From contig PFGG01000075.1 of NCBI GenBank assembly GCA_002783405.1, positions 124,001 to 188,000 of the forward strand: a stretch of DNA of 64,000 bases, given 5' to 3'. The position numbers and the translations under genes were made by a program. How positions within the stretch are numbered: the stretch's first letter is position 1; each line of letters starts with the position of its first letter. Of this stretch, positions 23,552 through 57,922 are shown in pieces. The stretch comes from a bacterium (Candidatus Blackallbacteria) CG13_big_fil_rev_8_21_14_2_50_49_14. GTDB lineage: Bacteria > Cyanobacteriota > Sericytochromatia > UBA7694. The notes under the pieces were generated by a model. That model was not told the origin of the DNA, did no database searches, and saw only the letters and a program-made list of their open reading frames with translations.

Positions 23552-23560
23552 TGGTACAAT
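23552..23560 (+). promoter_or_regulatory. Extended -10 promoter TGGTACAAT (AtpZ/I-like gene)
   Basis: Extended -10 element 53 bases ahead of the chosen start. It overlaps an upstream in-frame ATG (23559), which therefore cannot be in the transcript. Confidence 0.55.
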
Positions 23561-23612: not shown

Positions 23613-23870
23613 ATGGAGCAATTGATGGGGCACGGTCTGGATTTGGCCTTTAGCATGGTTTCACCCATGATTTTTGGTCTTTTTTTTGGATTGTATCTGG
23701 ACAAAGTCCTGCATACCCAACCGCTCTTCATGCTGAGCCTTACCCTGTTGGGAATCGCAACAGGATTTTGGAGCATTTTGAAGCAAGCGTATGGAATTCG
23801 CCCCGCCTCTGAAGACACTGCAAAGATCGAAACTGAAAATAAAACGCCTCACGAAAACAAAGATCCTTAA
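23613..23870 (+). CDS. AtpZ/AtpI-family membrane protein
   Basis: An 85-residue protein with two membrane helices (residues about 9-29 and 37-58) separated by the family's GLYLDK turn. The pattern SPMIFGLFFGLYLDK and TLLGIATGFWSI is that of AtpZ/AtpI-like proteins that usually precede ATP synthase genes and assist c-ring assembly or Mg/Ca transport. Here no ATP synthase gene adjoins; instead the NHL protein follows after 44 bases. The start at 23613 was chosen because the longer frame begins inside the promoter. Confidence 0.75.
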   Translation: MEQLMGHGLDLAFSMVSPMIFGLFFGLYLDKVLHTQPLFMLSLTLLGIATGFWSILKQAYGIRPASEDTAKIETENKTPHENKDP

Positions 23871-23914
23871 AACTTGGGCTTGAATCATAAAACAGGGACA
23901 GACGGGGTAAAGAT

Positions 23915-26900
23915 ATGGCACGCGGAGATATAGATGAGCGCATTCTCAAACAGGCCTTAATTGAGCGTGGCCTGGTAGAAGCCTCAGCCCTTGAAAATCT
24001 GGTCAATGAGCAAAAAGAACGTTTTCAAACCGTCCAAAAAACCTTGCCTGGTTTTTCTTTTCTGATCAATCTCGATAAACATTCCCTCGAAATTCGGGAC
24101 ACCATTTCTGGAGAGCTGAAAAAATCACTGGTTCTCAACGCAAAGGCCGAAGCCTATGATCCAGATAACTGGGAAACCTGGGGCAGTTCCCCCCTGCTCG
24201 CCGACAAAACAGATGGCACCCTGACCACACGCCAGGAAAGGGGCCCGCTCAATATCTACGGTCTGATTACTTTTCCTGAAGGAAGCTATCTCTATAATAA
24301 TGGCCGTCTGGATACCGAGTTTCTGGGGCTGAGTGACCATGCTTACTTTAATGGGCTTTACAAAGGAAAACCCACAACCGCGCCCTATGACCTCTTTCTT
24401 TCCCGCGATCATTCACAACTCTGTATCACGGATCGGGGTGCTGGCACCTTGCGGATTATTTCCACAACCGACTTCAGCGAAAAAGGCCCCTTTTCGATCC
24501 GCGAGCCGGGCAGCAACCTGAGCCTCAATCTTGCCCAGGATACCGCACACAAACGAATTTTTATTACCGACAATCAAACCTCTAACCTCTATATCCTTAA
24601 CCAGGAGACGATGAGCATCGAAAGACAACGGGTCGGTTTAGGGGTTCTGGGCAATATTTTACTGACCCCCGACAGTCAGCACCTTTACCTGCTCACCCTA
24701 AAACCCAATCAAAATCTCGTCTATTTAAATACCCACAGTTTTTCCCAGGAAAAAACCGTGAAGTTAAAAGGGGATCTGTTTAAAGCCAATAGCAGTGACC
24801 CCGCCGATCTGATGGCCCTCTCCCCAGATTTAAAACAATTGCTGGTCATGAGCTATTTGAATGACCCCACCCCCTTCACACCGATTATCAGCGTGCTGGA
24901 AACCGACGGCGTAAAAACAGTCAGACGCTATTCAATCAAAGAAGAGGGCAAACCCAGTCAAATCGCCTTTGCGCATAAAAACCCATTTTTGGAACATGCC
25001 CGCCGTCTGGAGGACATGCTGGTCGATGCCCGTTTAATTGAACCGCGCGCGCTTTGGGAACTCAAACGGGAACTCAGAGAATTGGAAGGTCTTGAACCCG
25101 AAGAAGAAAATACAGGCAGTTCACGTGGCAAAGAGTCTGCTGAAGAACCTGAAGCAGCCGACAAAGAAGAAGTTCAGGAAACAGCCCCCGAAGAAACACC
25201 TGAAGAAAAAACAGACGAACCTGAATTTTTAGAAATAGAACAGCATATTATTGATATCGCCGTCCTGCGCAAAGATCAGCAGAACAAAGATGAACTCAAT
25301 CTGACCCCCAACAAAGCCCCTAAAATTGATCTGCCTCGAGAAGCCCTCGATGAAATCATCGATATTATGGTGCAAACTTTTCAAAAACAGGTTGACGAAG
25401 AAATCAGCGACTACCCCGATGTCATGTCCCGCCTGCGCGAAGAAGCTGAAAAAGTACGGCAAGAACTGGAAAACTTTGATTCTGTGATTGTACAGGTCGC
25501 CGATCTGTTCGAAGGCAAGTCCTTGCGCACAATTATTCTGCGCGAAGCAATCGTGATGATGCTGGACCTGAAAGCATCGATCAAAGAAGCGGGTGTGCGC
25601 ACCGTTCCCACCCATTGCCCCAATTGCCGTCAACCCCTCTTGGGCAGCTGGGATTGCGAAGCCTGTGGCTTTGAAATTGACAATGCTGAACGCTCTTTTA
25701 AACGCAGAACCGCCTCTGCCGAGGCCACTGCCAATTTGGCCCGCGGTCAGATCCTGGTTCCAGACCCTCTGGGTTTGCGAATTCTACAACTGAATCCGTT
25801 TAAATTTGTAAGCTGGAACCTCGACCCCGATCAACTCTCCTGTGATTACCCCGTAGACTGTCTGATGCTGCCCAACAATAACCTGCTGCTGGTGGATAAA
25901 GACGGGCATAAAATCATGGAGATCGGCAGCCGGGGCAAAATTTTCTGGACCTTTGATGCCCATGCCTCTGCCCGGCATCGTCTGAATGAGCCAGTTCGCA
26001 TTACCTATCGTTTTGAAGATGACCATTCCTTACGCTACCTGATCGTAGACCAGGGCAATCACCGGGTTTTTGAAACCGATAAGAACCACGAAATTCATTG
26101 GGAATTCGGCGTTCAAGGCGAAGAAGGGGAGCATGGAAAATATCTCGATACGCCCAGCGATATTCAATATACCCATGACAATACCTACCTGATCGCAGAT
26201 ACTGGCAACCACCGCGTGATTGAAGTCAAAGGCAGCACGATTGAACGGGAATGGGGCGAAAATCTGGGGCTCAAATCGCCGACCTGTGCTCAACGCCTGC
26301 TCAACGACCACACCCTGATTCTCGATGCCGGCAACTACCGTTTACTTGAACTCGACAGCCAGGGCCAAATCCTACGCGAATCGACCTATTTTACCCGCGA
26401 AATTGACGAGGAATTCCGGGTGGTGCATCCGATTAAAATGATTCGCCTGCTCAATAAAGACATTTTGATCATGGACGAAGACAAGCTGATTCAGGTCATG
26501 CTCAATCACAACAAGCTGGTTTGGTACTCCAAACTGGATGATCTGGCTTTCCAACCCCAGGTACAGGAAGGCGAGGTGGTCATTGATGAGTTTGGCAATG
26601 AGCGGCGAATCTACAAAGTCATCGATCACGGTGAAATGAAACCCGTACGCCTATCGCAAAAAATCAATTTCAAACGCATGCAGAAACTGATTTCAGCACG
26701 GCTCTCCAGTGCTTTAAAACCCGGCGAAGAAGAAGATCCCGATAAAATGAGTTCAATGGCTGCCGATCGCCTGCGCAGCCTCTTGGCCAACCGCAAAGCC
26801 GAACAGGCCAAAGCGATGCAGGAACTCAATCTTGAAACCTTCCAGCCTTCGGCGATTTTTCAGAAACCTGATCTGGAACTTCCCAATATCCGCCGTTACT

Positions 26901-28069
26901 GTATTGATAAACACCACAATGCCTTGATTCGAATTAACCGCAAAGGCGAAGTCAAATGGCACTATGGCTTTGAGGTGGGGCAAACCCTCTCTCGCCCTTT
27001 TCATATTGCCGAAACCAAGCGAACACTCCTGGTCTCTGATACGGGCAATAACCGCGTGCTGGAAATCTCCAAGGCCGATAAGGAAGTGATCGCCGACTTC
27101 AAAGGGCCCGCCGACGCTCCACTTTCTGGCCCCCGCAGCGCCAACCGCACGGCGATGGGCAAAACACTGATCGCCGATCAGAAAAACAAACGGATCATTG
27201 AACTCGATGCCCGTGATCGCATCACCTGGGAATTCAGCAAAGCCAGCCATATCTCTTCTCCCCAATATGCTGAAGAAATTGAAAGTGGAGACGTGCTCTT
27301 TGCCGATTCTATGCTCAACAGTATTCGTCAGGTCGACCGGGAGGGCAATCTACGTTGGTCTTACGGCAGTCGCATCAAGGGAACGGGTCCGGGGCAGCTT
27401 TTCGCGCCTGAATTCGCAACCCGTTTGAGCAATGGCAATACCCTGATCGCAGATACCCGCAACAACCGGGTCGTAGAAGTGGAAATGAATGGTTCACTGG
27501 TTTGGTCCTATGAAGGACGTGGCCGGCAGAAAATCCTCAATCCCACCCGCTGTGAGCGCACAGAAGAAAACACGACCTTGATCATATTCAATAATAACCG
27601 TGAAGTGATCGAAGTCGATGCCAAAGGAGAAACGCTCTGGTATTTCCGCATGGGCAACGATGTGTTTCTCCCACCTGTACAGGGCATGGGCAGCAAGCAA
27701 TTGGTTGAAAAACTCAGCACCTACTACAATCCGATTGAAAAACGCCTGATTCGCATGGCCGAGAAAGACGGCATGAAAGGGGTCGAAGTGCATGTCGCCA
27801 TGCTCGACAATGTTCAGATGAAATCGGTGCGCGCCTCCTTGGTGCTGATGGCCCTTGAAAACTCTGGCACCGTGATCAAAACCTTTCCCACCCCCGAAGA
27901 AATTCTGGCCGATAAATTTGGGAAATTTATGATCGTGGCCTTTATTCTAAACCCCGGAATCAGCCTTGAAACACTTGAAGCCGACGTATTCACCATTGCG
28001 GAGATAGAATCGGTCAAAGTGGAAGCGATCCATTTTGAAGATGCTTCCGCTCCAGGAGCCGGTAAATAA
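23915..28069 (+). CDS. 1384-residue NHL-propeller protein with zinc ribbon and CheA-P2-like C-terminus
   Basis: No signal peptide is seen, so it is probably cytoplasmic. An N-terminal helical motif (ERILKQALIERGLVEASALENL) resembles the short N-terminal units of PilB/GspE ATPases and recurs near residue 365 (RRLEDMLVDARLIEPRALWEL). A beta-propeller fills residues about 45-350. An acidic linker and a coiled coil (about 490-550) lead to a zinc ribbon near 565 (CPNC and CEAC). NHL repeats (ADTGNHRVIEV, SDTGNNRVLEI, ADTRNNRVVEV) span about 600-1280. The final 90 residues (NVQMKSVRASLVLMALENSG, TFPTPEEI, IESVKVEAI) match the pattern of the CheY-binding P2 domain of CheA. Function unknown; a scaffold is likely. 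Confidence 0.8.
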   Translation: MARGDIDERILKQALIERGLVEASALENLVNEQKERFQTVQKTLPGFSFLINLDKHSLEIRDTISGELKKSLVLNAKAEAYDPDNWETWGSSPLLADKTDGTLTTRQERGPLNIYGLITFPEGSYLYNNGRLDTEFLGLSDHAYFNGLYKGKPTTAPYDLFLSRDHSQLCITDRGAGTLRIISTTDFSEKGPFSIREPGSNLSLNLAQDTAHKRIFITDNQTSNLYILNQETMSIERQRVGLGVLGNILLTPDSQHLYLLTLKPNQNLVYLNTHSFSQEKTVKLKGDLFKANSSDPADLMALSPDLKQLLVMSYLNDPTPFTPIISVLETDGVKTVRRYSIKEEGKPSQIAFAHKNPFLEHARRLEDMLVDARLIEPRALWELKRELRELEGLEPEEENTGSSRGKESAEEPEAADKEEVQETAPEETPEEKTDEPEFLEIEQHIIDIAVLRKDQQNKDELNLTPNKAPKIDLPREALDEIIDIMVQTFQKQVDEEISDYPDVMSRLREEAEKVRQELENFDSVIVQVADLFEGKSLRTIILREAIVMMLDLKASIKEAGVRTVPTHCPNCRQPLLGSWDCEACGFEIDNAERSFKRRTASAEATANLARGQILVPDPLGLRILQLNPFKFVSWNLDPDQLSCDYPVDCLMLPNNNLLLVDKDGHKIMEIGSRGKIFWTFDAHASARHRLNEPVRITYRFEDDHSLRYLIVDQGNHRVFETDKNHEIHWEFGVQGEEGEHGKYLDTPSDIQYTHDNTYLIADTGNHRVIEVKGSTIEREWGENLGLKSPTCAQRLLNDHTLILDAGNYRLLELDSQGQILRESTYFTREIDEEFRVVHPIKMIRLLNKDILIMDEDKLIQVMLNHNKLVWYSKLDDLAFQPQVQEGEVVIDEFGNERRIYKVIDHGEMKPVRLSQKINFKRMQKLISARLSSALKPGEEEDPDKMSSMAADRLRSLLANRKAEQAKAMQELNLETFQPSAIFQKPDLELPNIRRYCIDKHHNALIRINRKGEVKWHYGFEVGQTLSRPFHIAETKRTLLVSDTGNNRVLEISKADKEVIADFKGPADAPLSGPRSANRTAMGKTLIADQKNKRIIELDARDRITWEFSKASHISSPQYAEEIESGDVLFADSMLNSIRQVDREGNLRWSYGSRIKGTGPGQLFAPEFATRLSNGNTLIADTRNNRVVEVEMNGSLVWSYEGRGRQKILNPTRCERTEENTTLIIFNNNREVIEVDAKGETLWYFRMGNDVFLPPVQGMGSKQLVEKLSTYYNPIEKRLIRMAEKDGMKGVEVHVAMLDNVQMKSVRASLVLMALENSGTVIKTFPTPEEILADKFGKFMIVAFILNPGISLETLEADVFTIAEIESVKVEAIHFEDASAPGAGK

Positions 28070-28070
28070 A

Positions 28071-29669
28071 ATGCAAACCCTTGATTTAATCGTGATCGTG
28101 CTCTATTTTGCAGGAGTGGCTGCGATTGGCTATTTTTCAAGCCGCAAAAGCCTGACGGATAGCAAATCCTATTTCCTCGGCGGGAGTGGGGTGGGTTGGA
28201 TGGCAATTGGCGCCAGCCTCTTTGCCAGCAATATTTCTGCCGAACATTTTATTGGCTTGGCGGGCAGTGGTGCAGCGGGAGGTCTGGCCGTAGGCCAATT
28301 TGAATGGTTGGCTTGCTTAATCCTGATTCTGCTGGGCTGGCTTTTTGTGCCCTTTTATTTGCGCACAGGCGTGTTTACCATGCCTGAATTCTTGGAATTG
28401 CGTTTCAATCGCCAGTGCCGAACCTATCTCTCTGCGATTTCTTTAATCGCCTATGTCTTTACCAAAGTCAGTGTCGCCGTTTACGCAGGCGCTTTGGTGC
28501 TTAAAACCATTTTGGGCTGGGATATCTGGCTGGGAGCAATTGTTTTAATCGTAGCCACGGGTGCCTATACGGTTTTTGGCGGACTTCGGGCGGTGATCTA
28601 TACCGATTTTTTTCAGGCTTTTGTTTTGATTGGCGGGGGGCTGTTTTTAACGGTGGCGGCCATCAGCCAGGTCGGCGGACCTTCGGTTCTGTTTCAGAAA
28701 TTGCCCCTGGGTTTCTTTAATCTTTGGAAAGGGGTTTCACACCCCGACTTTCCCTGGACCGGCATCCTTTTTGGGGCACCTATTTTGGGAATTTGGTATT
28801 GGTGCACCGATCAGATGATCGTACAACGCACCCTGGCGGCCAAAAATATTTCAGAAGCGCAAAAAGCGACACTTACGGCAGGTTTTCTCAAGCTTTTACC
28901 TGTTTTTATCCTGGTTTTACCAGGTATGGCCGGGCATGTGCTTTACCCCCAGGTCAAACCCGATGAAATTTACGTCACGCTCGTTCACAATCTCTTGCCG
29001 ACAGGCATCAAAGGTCTGGTCGTGGCGGGTCTGTTGGCGGCTTTGATGAGCTCACTCTCAAGTGTGTTTAACAGCAGCTCGACCCTGGTGGTCATGGATT
29101 TTTACCACCATTGGCGCCCCCAGGCCAGCGAAAAAGAACTGGTAAGAGCAGGTCAGGCCTCAACCCTGGTTCTGGTCGGAGTCGGCCTGCTCTGGTTGCC
29201 ACTGATTGGTCTGATGAGCAATCAACTCTATCTCTACCTTCAATCTGTTCAGGCCTATATCTCCCCCCCGATCGCAGCAGTTTTTCTGGCCGGACTGCTC
29301 TGGAAACGTGCCAATGGCCAAGGCGCCTTTGCCGCACTTTTAACCGGTTTTGTTTTGGGCAGCCTGCGCTTTGTGGCCGAAATTTTACTCAAACTTCAGA
29401 AAATAAGCCCAGAAAGCTTTTTAGGGGCGTATGCCAGCATCAATTTTTTACATTTTGCCATTCTGCTTTTTGTGGTCGCAGGCAGCGTGCTGGCACTGGT
29501 CAGCCTGCTTACCCTTCCACCAACAGCCAGTCAACTGCAAATTTTCGCCTCCACAGAGGGCCCCACAGAAACAAACAAAAAGGCCCCCAACGCTGCCGCC
29601 CTCTTTTTAATTCTGATTGTTTTGGCAATGTGGTTTCTACTCAGTCCTTTGATGGGTTTTAAGGGCTAA
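28071..29669 (+). CDS. Sodium:solute symporter (SSS/SGLT family)
   Basis: A 532-residue inner-membrane carrier with about 14 helices. Family blocks are SKSYFLGGSGVGWMAIGASLFASNISAEHFIG, FVPFYLRTGVFTMPEFLELRF (both shortened from continuous sequence), WYWCTDQMIVQR and AALMSSLSSVFNSSSTL, the last containing Na2-site Ser residues. It begins one base after the NHL gene stop. The SGLT-like ISAEHFIG and CTDQ..VQR segments suggest a sugar or polyol substrate, but this is inference. ATG 28071 was chosen over an earlier one inside the NHL gene. Confidence 0.9.
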   Translation: MQTLDLIVIVLYFAGVAAIGYFSSRKSLTDSKSYFLGGSGVGWMAIGASLFASNISAEHFIGLAGSGAAGGLAVGQFEWLACLILILLGWLFVPFYLRTGVFTMPEFLELRFNRQCRTYLSAISLIAYVFTKVSVAVYAGALVLKTILGWDIWLGAIVLIVATGAYTVFGGLRAVIYTDFFQAFVLIGGGLFLTVAAISQVGGPSVLFQKLPLGFFNLWKGVSHPDFPWTGILFGAPILGIWYWCTDQMIVQRTLAAKNISEAQKATLTAGFLKLLPVFILVLPGMAGHVLYPQVKPDEIYVTLVHNLLPTGIKGLVVAGLLAALMSSLSSVFNSSSTLVVMDFYHHWRPQASEKELVRAGQASTLVLVGVGLLWLPLIGLMSNQLYLYLQSVQAYISPPIAAVFLAGLLWKRANGQGAFAALLTGFVLGSLRFVAEILLKLQKISPESFLGAYASINFLHFAILLFVVAGSVLALVSLLTLPPTASQLQIFASTEGPTETNKKAPNAAALFLILIVLAMWFLLSPLMGFKG

Positions 29670-56398: not shown

Positions 56399-57922
56399 AT
56401 GCAAGTCAAACGACTGATTCATCTGCTCACTGCAGTTTGGATCAGTCTTGTCTTTTTGCTCGCCTGCCGCCCCAGCAATCTGGTGGATGGGGGCATTCTT
56501 GGCCCCGGCATTCCTGTTTCGCTCACCATTCAAGTCGTCGATGCCCTGACCCTACAACCCATCAGTGGGGCCCGCATCACCCTCAAAAAAGATGGGCAGA
56601 ATATTGCGCCCGATCAGGCCTCTGATGGTTCTGGGGCCGCCGTATTTACCAATGTGCCCTCGGGTGATGGCTATAAAGCCTTTGCAGGCAGTGTCAGGGG
56701 CTATACCCCAGCCGCCTCCCCCGCAATCAAACTCACCCAAAATGACAGTGTACAAATTGCCATGTCACCGAGTGTCAATTCCGGCGCCGGTCTGGTAGCG
56801 GGCTCGGTCAAAGATGCAAGTACCCAGGCCCCGCTGGCAGGGGTTTCTGTCAATCTGGTGCCCATGGCGGGTCTGGCCAGCTACCGTGCCCCCACCCCAA
56901 GAGCGGGCGTGCAGCAAATGTCAGTGCCGCGTTATCCCCCCTACCGAATTCAACAGGTTCCACCAGTGCCCGGTGGCAGTGTGGTTCAAACCGACGCCTC
57001 CGGCCAATTTACCTTCAACAGTGTTCCCGGTGGCGCTTACCAGGCTGTTTTTCAAATGCCTGGCTATAAACAGATGACCCGTGACAATATCGTGGTCACC
57101 CCCGGTGAAAGCACCACGATTGAAACCGTCTTCATGAAATCAGGCTCAGGCACGGGCAACAGTGCCGGCAATATCCTGGTCGTCGAATCAGGTCGCGTGG
57201 TGCAAATGAATGCCCAAAACCAGATTATCTGGCGTTTTGCCACGCCCAATCCCTCTTCGGCCACCCGTCTGCCCGATGGCAATACCCTGGTCGCCGATGA
57301 AAGCGCCAGCCAAGTCTGGTCGATTGGCCCCGATGGCAGCATCCTTTGGAAAATGGGCAGCACCTTGGGCCTGATCAATACCCTCTCTGGGCCGGGCTGG
57401 GTTTCAGCGGCCAAAGACGGATTGTCTTTTCTGATCACAGATACCGGCAATAACCGCATCCTTGAAATTCAAAACGGTCAAATTGTCTGGGAATTCAAAC
57501 AAACCCTCTTGCGTCCCCGTTCAGCCACCTATATTCCCAATGGCAATATTCTGATCGCTGACACAGGCAGCCGAAGAGTGATTGAAGTAACCCGCAATGG
57601 ACAGGTAGTCTGGAGCTTTTTAACCGATATGTCGGCCCCTGTGCACGCTGTTCGTTTGGAAGACGGCAATACCCTGATCACCGATGCGGGCTATAACCGC
57701 GTGATCATGATCAACGCGGCCGGACAATCCGTTTGGTATTTTGATGGTTCAGCCGATCCAGCCGGCCCACTCAACCGCCCCCGCAGTGCCATGGCCTCTG
57801 CTACCGGTACCTTCTTGATTTCAGATACCGGCAATAACCGCATTCTTGAGGTCAATCGGCAGCGTCAGGTGGTCAATGCCCTTTCCAATTTTGCGCACCC
57901 TCAGGTCATTGAACGGCTTTAA
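56399..57922 (+). CDS. NHL-propeller lipoprotein with two carboxypeptidase-regulatory-like domains
   Basis: A 507-residue lipoprotein (lipobox LLAC near residue 22; GGAGG ribosome site). Two CarboxypepD-regulatory beta-sandwiches (IQVVDALTLQPISGARITLKK region about 38-120; VAGSVKDASTQAPLAGVSVNL about 130-245) precede an NHL-type propeller (about 255-505) with units such as ADTGSRRVIEV, TDTGNNRILEI, SDTGNNRILEV. The same ADTGNNR repeat occurs in the large cytoplasmic NHL protein at 24 kb. It is probably a surface binding protein; no catalytic site is seen. Confidence 0.85.
   Translation: MQVKRLIHLLTAVWISLVFLLACRPSNLVDGGILGPGIPVSLTIQVVDALTLQPISGARITLKKDGQNIAPDQASDGSGAAVFTNVPSGDGYKAFAGSVRGYTPAASPAIKLTQNDSVQIAMSPSVNSGAGLVAGSVKDASTQAPLAGVSVNLVPMAGLASYRAPTPRAGVQQMSVPRYPPYRIQQVPPVPGGSVVQTDASGQFTFNSVPGGAYQAVFQMPGYKQMTRDNIVVTPGESTTIETVFMKSGSGTGNSAGNILVVESGRVVQMNAQNQIIWRFATPNPSSATRLPDGNTLVADESASQVWSIGPDGSILWKMGSTLGLINTLSGPGWVSAAKDGLSFLITDTGNNRILEIQNGQIVWEFKQTLLRPRSATYIPNGNILIADTGSRRVIEVTRNGQVVWSFLTDMSAPVHAVRLEDGNTLITDAGYNRVIMINAAGQSVWYFDGSADPAGPLNRPRSAMASATGTFLISDTGNNRILEVNRQRQVVNALSNFAHPQVIERL

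Follow-up and report, generated by a model that had tools for sequence, protein, structure and literature searches.

What is a CheA domain doing at the end of a protein that is not a CheA? The question arises from a window of DNA, by which we mean the whole 64,000-nucleotide stretch analysed here, in which a reading frame at 23915..28069 encodes a 1384-residue protein with three propellers and a C-terminal P2 domain. All window coordinates given below are on the + strand. An earlier note on the sequence had described this frame as coding for an NHL protein with propellers; the frame is confirmed, and Pfam NHL and PQQ-type matches bear out the propellers. The source genome, G000 (5.65 Mb), is related to the class Candidatus Sericytochromatia. 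At the level of the locus, the genome nearest to it is 80% identical and corresponds to G015, of the same genus. These two and G014, G016 and G017 are the five genomes of family f1, while G013 and G012 are genomes of a sister order. Orthologues of the 1384-residue protein occur in G014 (partial), G015, G016 and G017.

Identity of the C-terminal domain

Sequence comparison assigns the last 84 or so residues, 1288-1371 (27776..28027), unambiguously to the P2 response-regulator-binding domain. Pfam model PF07194 matches residues 1291-1370 at profile positions 3-80 of 81, with an E-value of 9.2e-14 and 51.7 bits against a curated cut-off of 23. Searched as a single sequence against all PDB chains, the protein has one significant match, E 4.6e-6, to the P2 domain of Thermotoga maritima CheA in the entry 1u0s (chain 1u0s_A), where it is in complex with CheY. 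A profile of the propeller-borne P2 domains alone leads to this chain again, at E 9.4e-14, with no other chain below E 1. AlphaFold2 models the region with the ferredoxin-like order of strands and helices, in blocks whose pLDDT is mostly 73-91.

Because the ferredoxin-like fold is common, a chance match by some generic domain of this fold might be proposed. That explanation, to which we give almost no credence, is already refuted so far as Pfam and PDB searches can speak: many paralogs score far above the curated cut-off, and CheA P2 is the only significant PDB sequence match. A different ferredoxin-like domain at the C-terminus was considered and rejected, the only other PDB sequence match being a thioredoxin family protein at E 2. 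The earlier note had read the C-terminus as CheA-P2-like and that reading holds; neither a lack of P2 matches nor a clear match to another ferredoxin-like domain emerged from the Pfam, PDB sequence and profile searches.

P2 is listed as an auxiliary domain of CheA in a published survey (PMC10782961). The protein described here is not a CheA histidine kinase, as a Pfam scan of its whole length, up to E 1, detects no Hpt, dimerisation, HATPase_c or CheW domain. Nor is the fusion an artifact of a chimeric assembly, since several paralogs, and the independent assemblies of G015, G016 and G017, all have it.

Domain architecture of the propeller protein

The protein was modelled with AlphaFold2 in two parts, residues 1-470 and residues 441-1384, each with a mean pLDDT of 82. 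The model of the C-terminal part has a low pTM of 0.43 and gives no relative placement of domains. From the N-terminus, the models show a helical hairpin, propeller 1, a second hairpin, an acidic linker of low confidence, a helix-helix-strand-strand-helix unit, a zinc ribbon and propeller 2, followed by a helix pair (residues 917-975), propeller 3, a helix and P2. Three propellers are therefore modelled, of about 7, 6 and 6 blades as counted from strands in the models, and not two as had been supposed.

Propeller 1 (residues ~47-355, 24053..24979) is YVTN/YncE-like. Its best Foldseek match is the YVTN structure 1l0q, at E 1.9e-12 with low TM-scores, the model having a pLDDT of 82, and its NCBIfam match is YncE at E 1.6e-4. 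Propeller 2 (residues ~613-873, 25751..26533) is of the NHL type, with PF01436 at E 1.1e-7 and 31.9 bits against a cut-off of 20, the best stretch being residues 745-768. Propeller 3 (residues ~994-1245, 26894..27649) is of the NHL/PQQ type; Pfam PQQ_2 matches it at E 1.1e-7, and VIA-align gives Z-scores of 24-27 to NHL and other propellers. In a Foldseek search with the C-terminal part, the NHL domains of TRIM2 and TRIM71 rank first, with the matched region not resolved; propellers fill the list, which is thus silent on the P2 and Hsp70-related domains. A 507-residue lipoprotein-like reading frame elsewhere in the window (56399-57922) has NHL-type similarity to propeller 3.

The zinc ribbon that the earlier note had pointed out, CPNC-x9-CEAC (C568, C571, C581 and C584; 25616..25666), is confirmed, each of its four cysteines being at least 90% conserved among 24 family members. 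A coiled coil had also been placed in the middle of the protein. The stretch before the zinc ribbon proves to be something else, described in the next section, but a coiled-coil-like helix pair does occur between propellers 2 and 3 (26663..26839).

The models have helical hairpins at residues 8-43 (23936..24043) and 365-391 (25007..25087), which had been taken for two copies of a PilB/GspE-N-like unit. We drop the GspE-N/MshEN identification, because neither MshEN (PF05157) nor any other Pfam model matches residues 1-50 or 352-402 up to E 10, a search in which the HMMER filters can hide very weak matches. The same genome yields ten MshEN matches elsewhere, one of them in the paralog L025 at a different position (residues 466-544). 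The MshEN matches aligned for comparison with the hairpins seem to span the latter portion of MshEN and not a hairpin. The suggestion that the protein recruits a PilB/PilT-type partner was built on these units, and it loses its support with them.

A free-standing relative of Hsp70 subdomain IIB

Residues ~477-550 (25343..25564), just before the zinc ribbon, represent an isolated relative of subdomain IIB of the Hsp70 nucleotide-binding domain. A profile of 22 family members matches 136 PDB sequences at E-values of 1 or lower, the best being 1.5e-11, and this result replaces the coiled-coil reading of the stretch; the best 60 of the 136 are chains of the Hsp70/DnaK family, matched at about residues 233-305 in Hsp70 numbering. 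Taken alone, 14 of the 22 family members match PF00012, the best at E 7e-6. The modelled helix-helix-strand-strand-helix topology agrees with that of subdomain IIB. The remainder of Hsp70 has no match, only profile positions of about 229-297 being hit, and the protein has neither the full nucleotide-binding domain, with its ATP-binding motifs, nor the substrate-binding domain of a complete chaperone.

The unit is part of the propeller family's core, since members without P2 carry it as well. In Hsp70, the IIB lobe is the place where several nucleotide-exchange factors bind. The lobe in the propeller family may likewise dock GrpE-like or other chaperone partners. We found no open-licence paper that joins Hsp70, subdomain IIB and a propeller, and the free-standing lobe is a second oddity of the same family.

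An expanded family with several P2-tailed members

Searched at full length, the protein has matches in each of the 18 genomes of the class; many of these genomes match it only through propeller repeats. The propeller family of G000 has about 15 proteins by a count of listed reading frames, and further members occur in G014-G017. P2 is present on five non-CheA proteins of G000, namely the 1384-residue protein, L018, L019, L020 and L021. L020 is 39% identical to the 1384-residue protein, while L018, L019 and L021 have, besides P2, a cNMP-binding domain after propeller 2. The P2 of L021 is degenerate and scores 16.7 bits, below the cut-off. This degenerate form, lacking the motif M-K-x-x-R, is kept in two genomes (L021:8541-11030 in G000, and L099:7847-10096). 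Other regulatory domains occur in members without P2, MshEN in L025 and two cNMP-binding stretches in L024.

Several P2-tailed paralogs, often with a cNMP-binding domain, are found in five Sericytochromatia genomes. Across the phylum, 16 of 292 genomes have a P2 match at E 1e-5, and all 16 belong to this class. In that 292-genome sample, checked by Pfam for some carriers and by inspection of frames for others, we saw no P2 outside CheA beyond the f1 propeller family. Two candidates for such a carrier were rejected: G003:C3 has Hpt and HATPase_c, and G001:C214, an incomplete frame following cheR- and HDOD-like genes, is taken to be a CheA.

AtpZ as the conserved partner gene

Directly upstream of the propeller gene, at 23613..23870, lies a gene for a small membrane protein of 85 residues, which had been noted as AtpZ/I-like. 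It is a clear member of the AtpZ/AtpI family, with PF09527 at E 2.5e-15 and 56.7 bits against a cut-off of 26.6; an alternative in-frame upstream ATG is possible at 23559. When the pair was surveyed, each of the five f1 genomes proved to have AtpZ immediately before the P2-propeller orthologue, and in four of the five it is the only AtpZ found. In the sister-order genomes G013 and G012, AtpZ stands directly before atpB. The atpB genes of G000, G015, G016 and G017 are on another contig than the AtpZ/P2-propeller pair. In f1, AtpZ has moved from the atp operon to the P2-propeller gene.

G000 has two more genes of the AtpZ/AtpI family (G000:C14:34744-34905 and G000:C21:83339-83503). These adjoin ATPase subunit genes in what, to judge by sequence, look like operons of the N-ATPase type, and another atpB is found at G000:C59.

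Origin and retention of the propeller P2

A tree of 42 P2 domains, whose 76 columns allow limited resolution, keeps all 19 propeller P2s together, set off by a branch with support 99/92. The propeller P2s and the first P2 of the two-P2 CheAs of f1 are in turn split from other CheA P2s with support 95/89. In the propeller tree, P2-bearing proteins cluster; their placement calls for two changes, and one clade uniting them is not rejected (pAU 0.41). The simplest history compatible with these sequences would be that the lineage's own CheA supplied P2 once and that duplication came afterwards; the transfer probably went from CheA to propeller, since CheA P2 is widely spread. CheAs of this order with two or three tandem P2s include L120:2759-5674 (G013), L017:8628-11138 (G000, minus strand) and L101:4846-7206 (G016).

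An alignment of 17 propeller P2s has invariant M, K, R, L, G and P positions, mostly common to CheA P2s: K, R and P, and G in most, are kept there too. The propeller P2s also have derived features that are rare in CheA P2s, an H at the second position past the first E, and P-E/D substituted for V-x.

Purifying selection acts on the 1384-residue protein. Between G000 and G015, a comparison in which dS is near saturation for several parts of the protein, dN/dS is 0.087 overall, 0.045-0.048 in propellers 2 and 3, and 0.13 in P2. The faster change of P2 might be taken to mean that the domain is a passive remnant of gene fusion that docks nothing, and that the protein acts through its propellers, Hsp70-related lobe and zinc ribbon, for example in assembly of a membrane complex with AtpZ. 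The many paralogs without P2 fit such a history, as does the departure of the f1 AtpZ from the atp operon to its present place beside the P2-propeller gene. We nevertheless regard a passive remnant as improbable, because none of the complete orthologues has lost P2, several paralog groups spread over four genera also carry it, purifying selection still acts on it, and in most cases its motif is invariant.

Chemotaxis genes and gene neighborhoods

The earlier note had remarked that no chemotaxis gene is present. This is correct for the surroundings of the reading frame and for the window, but not for the genome, since G000 has several CheAs, CheR, FliM and short stand-alone receivers, among them G000:C65:188841-189176, near FliM, and G000:C75:243316-243657. 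One of its CheAs, outside the window, has two P2 domains, and there are 128 receiver matches in the genome.

Downstream of the P2-propeller gene, a sodium:solute symporter of the SSF family (28071..29669; PF00474, E 9.1e-91) starts adjoining the stop codon. SSF is the next gene in G000 and G016 (L092) and in no other f1 genome. In G017, AtpZ, the P2-propeller gene, fliD, fliS and fliT follow in a row on one strand (L091:2620-9964), with 27 bp between propeller gene and fliD; fliD is located elsewhere in G000, G015 and G016. A P2-cNMP propeller gene of G016 lies 4.3 kb from a two-P2 CheA gene on the same strand, and in G000 about 14 kb separate another P2-propeller gene from the two-P2 CheA gene; for each of these two proximities a rough post hoc estimate of chance is 1-3%. 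In four relatives, the P2-CheA gene is 7-10 kb from fliM, which ties P2 to flagellar chemotaxis there.

Other P2-tailed paralogs keep other company. A P2-cNMP propeller gene is directly followed by genes for an ABC-2 ATPase and permease in three of three genomes (L018:6875-12110, L098:7847-13048 and L100:6731-11855), the pair being identified by Pfam for L018, where there is no gap, and by sequence likeness for G015 and G016. A further P2-cNMP propeller gene overlaps a PP2C phosphatase gene (L019:7951-10912 by Pfam, and a look-alike in G015, L097:7859-10814).

A proposed docking role

Computation establishes the identity of P2, its single clade beside CheA P2, the expansion of the family, the purifying selection and the pairing with AtpZ. 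On this basis we lean toward the reading that the C-terminal P2 of the propeller scaffold docks CheY or a CheY-like receiver. Of the partners that the earlier note had put forward, a CheY-like one gains support from an origin adjoining the lineage's own CheA P2, from purifying selection and from some of the genome context. A soluble three-propeller scaffold would carry a P2 captured from the lineage's own two-P2 CheA; the domain would still bind CheY or a CheY-like receiver, and would tether the receiver, phosphorylated or not, to the client of the propellers. The machine at which a receiver is docked might then differ from one P2-tailed paralog to the next, being AtpZ in the present locus and an ABC-2 exporter or a PP2C phosphatase elsewhere, and some of the scaffolds could be gated by their cyclic-nucleotide domain. 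The effect would be either to deliver chemotaxis output to the machine or to sequester CheY from CheA and the flagellar motor.

Retention of the CheY-binding face is judged here by conserved motif positions. Several observations weigh against docking: the fliD and CheA neighborhoods are each seen in just one or two genomes, the main conserved partner, AtpZ, is no chemotaxis protein, and the L021/L099 group has lost M-K-x-x-R. In a second explanation, possible if less probable, the CheA-derived P2 now binds some other partner, such as a non-receiver protein, AtpZ-linked machinery or, serving as a module for intramolecular contact or oligomerisation, the propeller of its own protein. The stable neighbors of the P2-propeller genes are indeed AtpZ, ABC-2 and PP2C rather than che genes, and the derived residues rare in CheA P2s could reflect such a change. 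Set against a change of partner are the invariant positions shared with CheA P2s, the fact that their nearest relative is a P2 from the CheA of these very bacteria, and the receivers of the genome, all of them possible partners.

The P2 tail suggests that in this Sericytochromatia lineage chemotaxis signals may be wired to unrelated machines. A more speculative extension, which we hold to be doubtful, is that the propeller paralogs, several of them cNMP-binding and one, without P2, bearing a c-di-GMP-type MshEN, form extra chemotaxis wiring: their CheA-derived P2 tails would compete with CheA for CheY, and so deliver CheY to, or withhold it at, an ATP-synthase assembly factor, transporters and the flagellar filament cap. 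With P2 on an unrelated and expanded family of scaffolds, docking sites for CheY would not be confined to the kinase and the motor. The single clade of propeller P2s beside CheA P2 makes a shared partner testable by a simple competition assay.

Comparison with known systems

Among open-licence papers we found no report of P2 on a class of proteins other than CheA. The individual domains are known; as far as can be told, what is new is their combination and its lineage-specific expansion. The domain at the C-terminus resembles the P2 of CheA (PF07194; T. maritima CheA, 1u0s) in sequence family, length, predicted order of strands and helices, and motif, and the propeller P2s are one clade adjoining the P2 of CheA from the same bacteria; it differs in being C-terminal on a propeller protein that lacks the Hpt, dimerisation, kinase and CheW domains. 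Propellers 2 and 3 share the NHL fold with TRIM2/TRIM71 and NHLRC2, whereas here two NHL propellers and one YVTN-like propeller occur in one bacterial protein together with the Hsp70-related lobe, a zinc ribbon and P2. A stretch of about 70 residues corresponds to residues 233-305 of Hsp70/DnaK, where subdomain IIB is part of the nucleotide-binding domain, but appears here as a free-standing lobe with the other parts of Hsp70 unmatched. The neighboring gene is a clear member of AtpZ/AtpI (ATPase_gene1, PF09527), paired here with a P2-propeller gene and found before atpB in the sister genomes.
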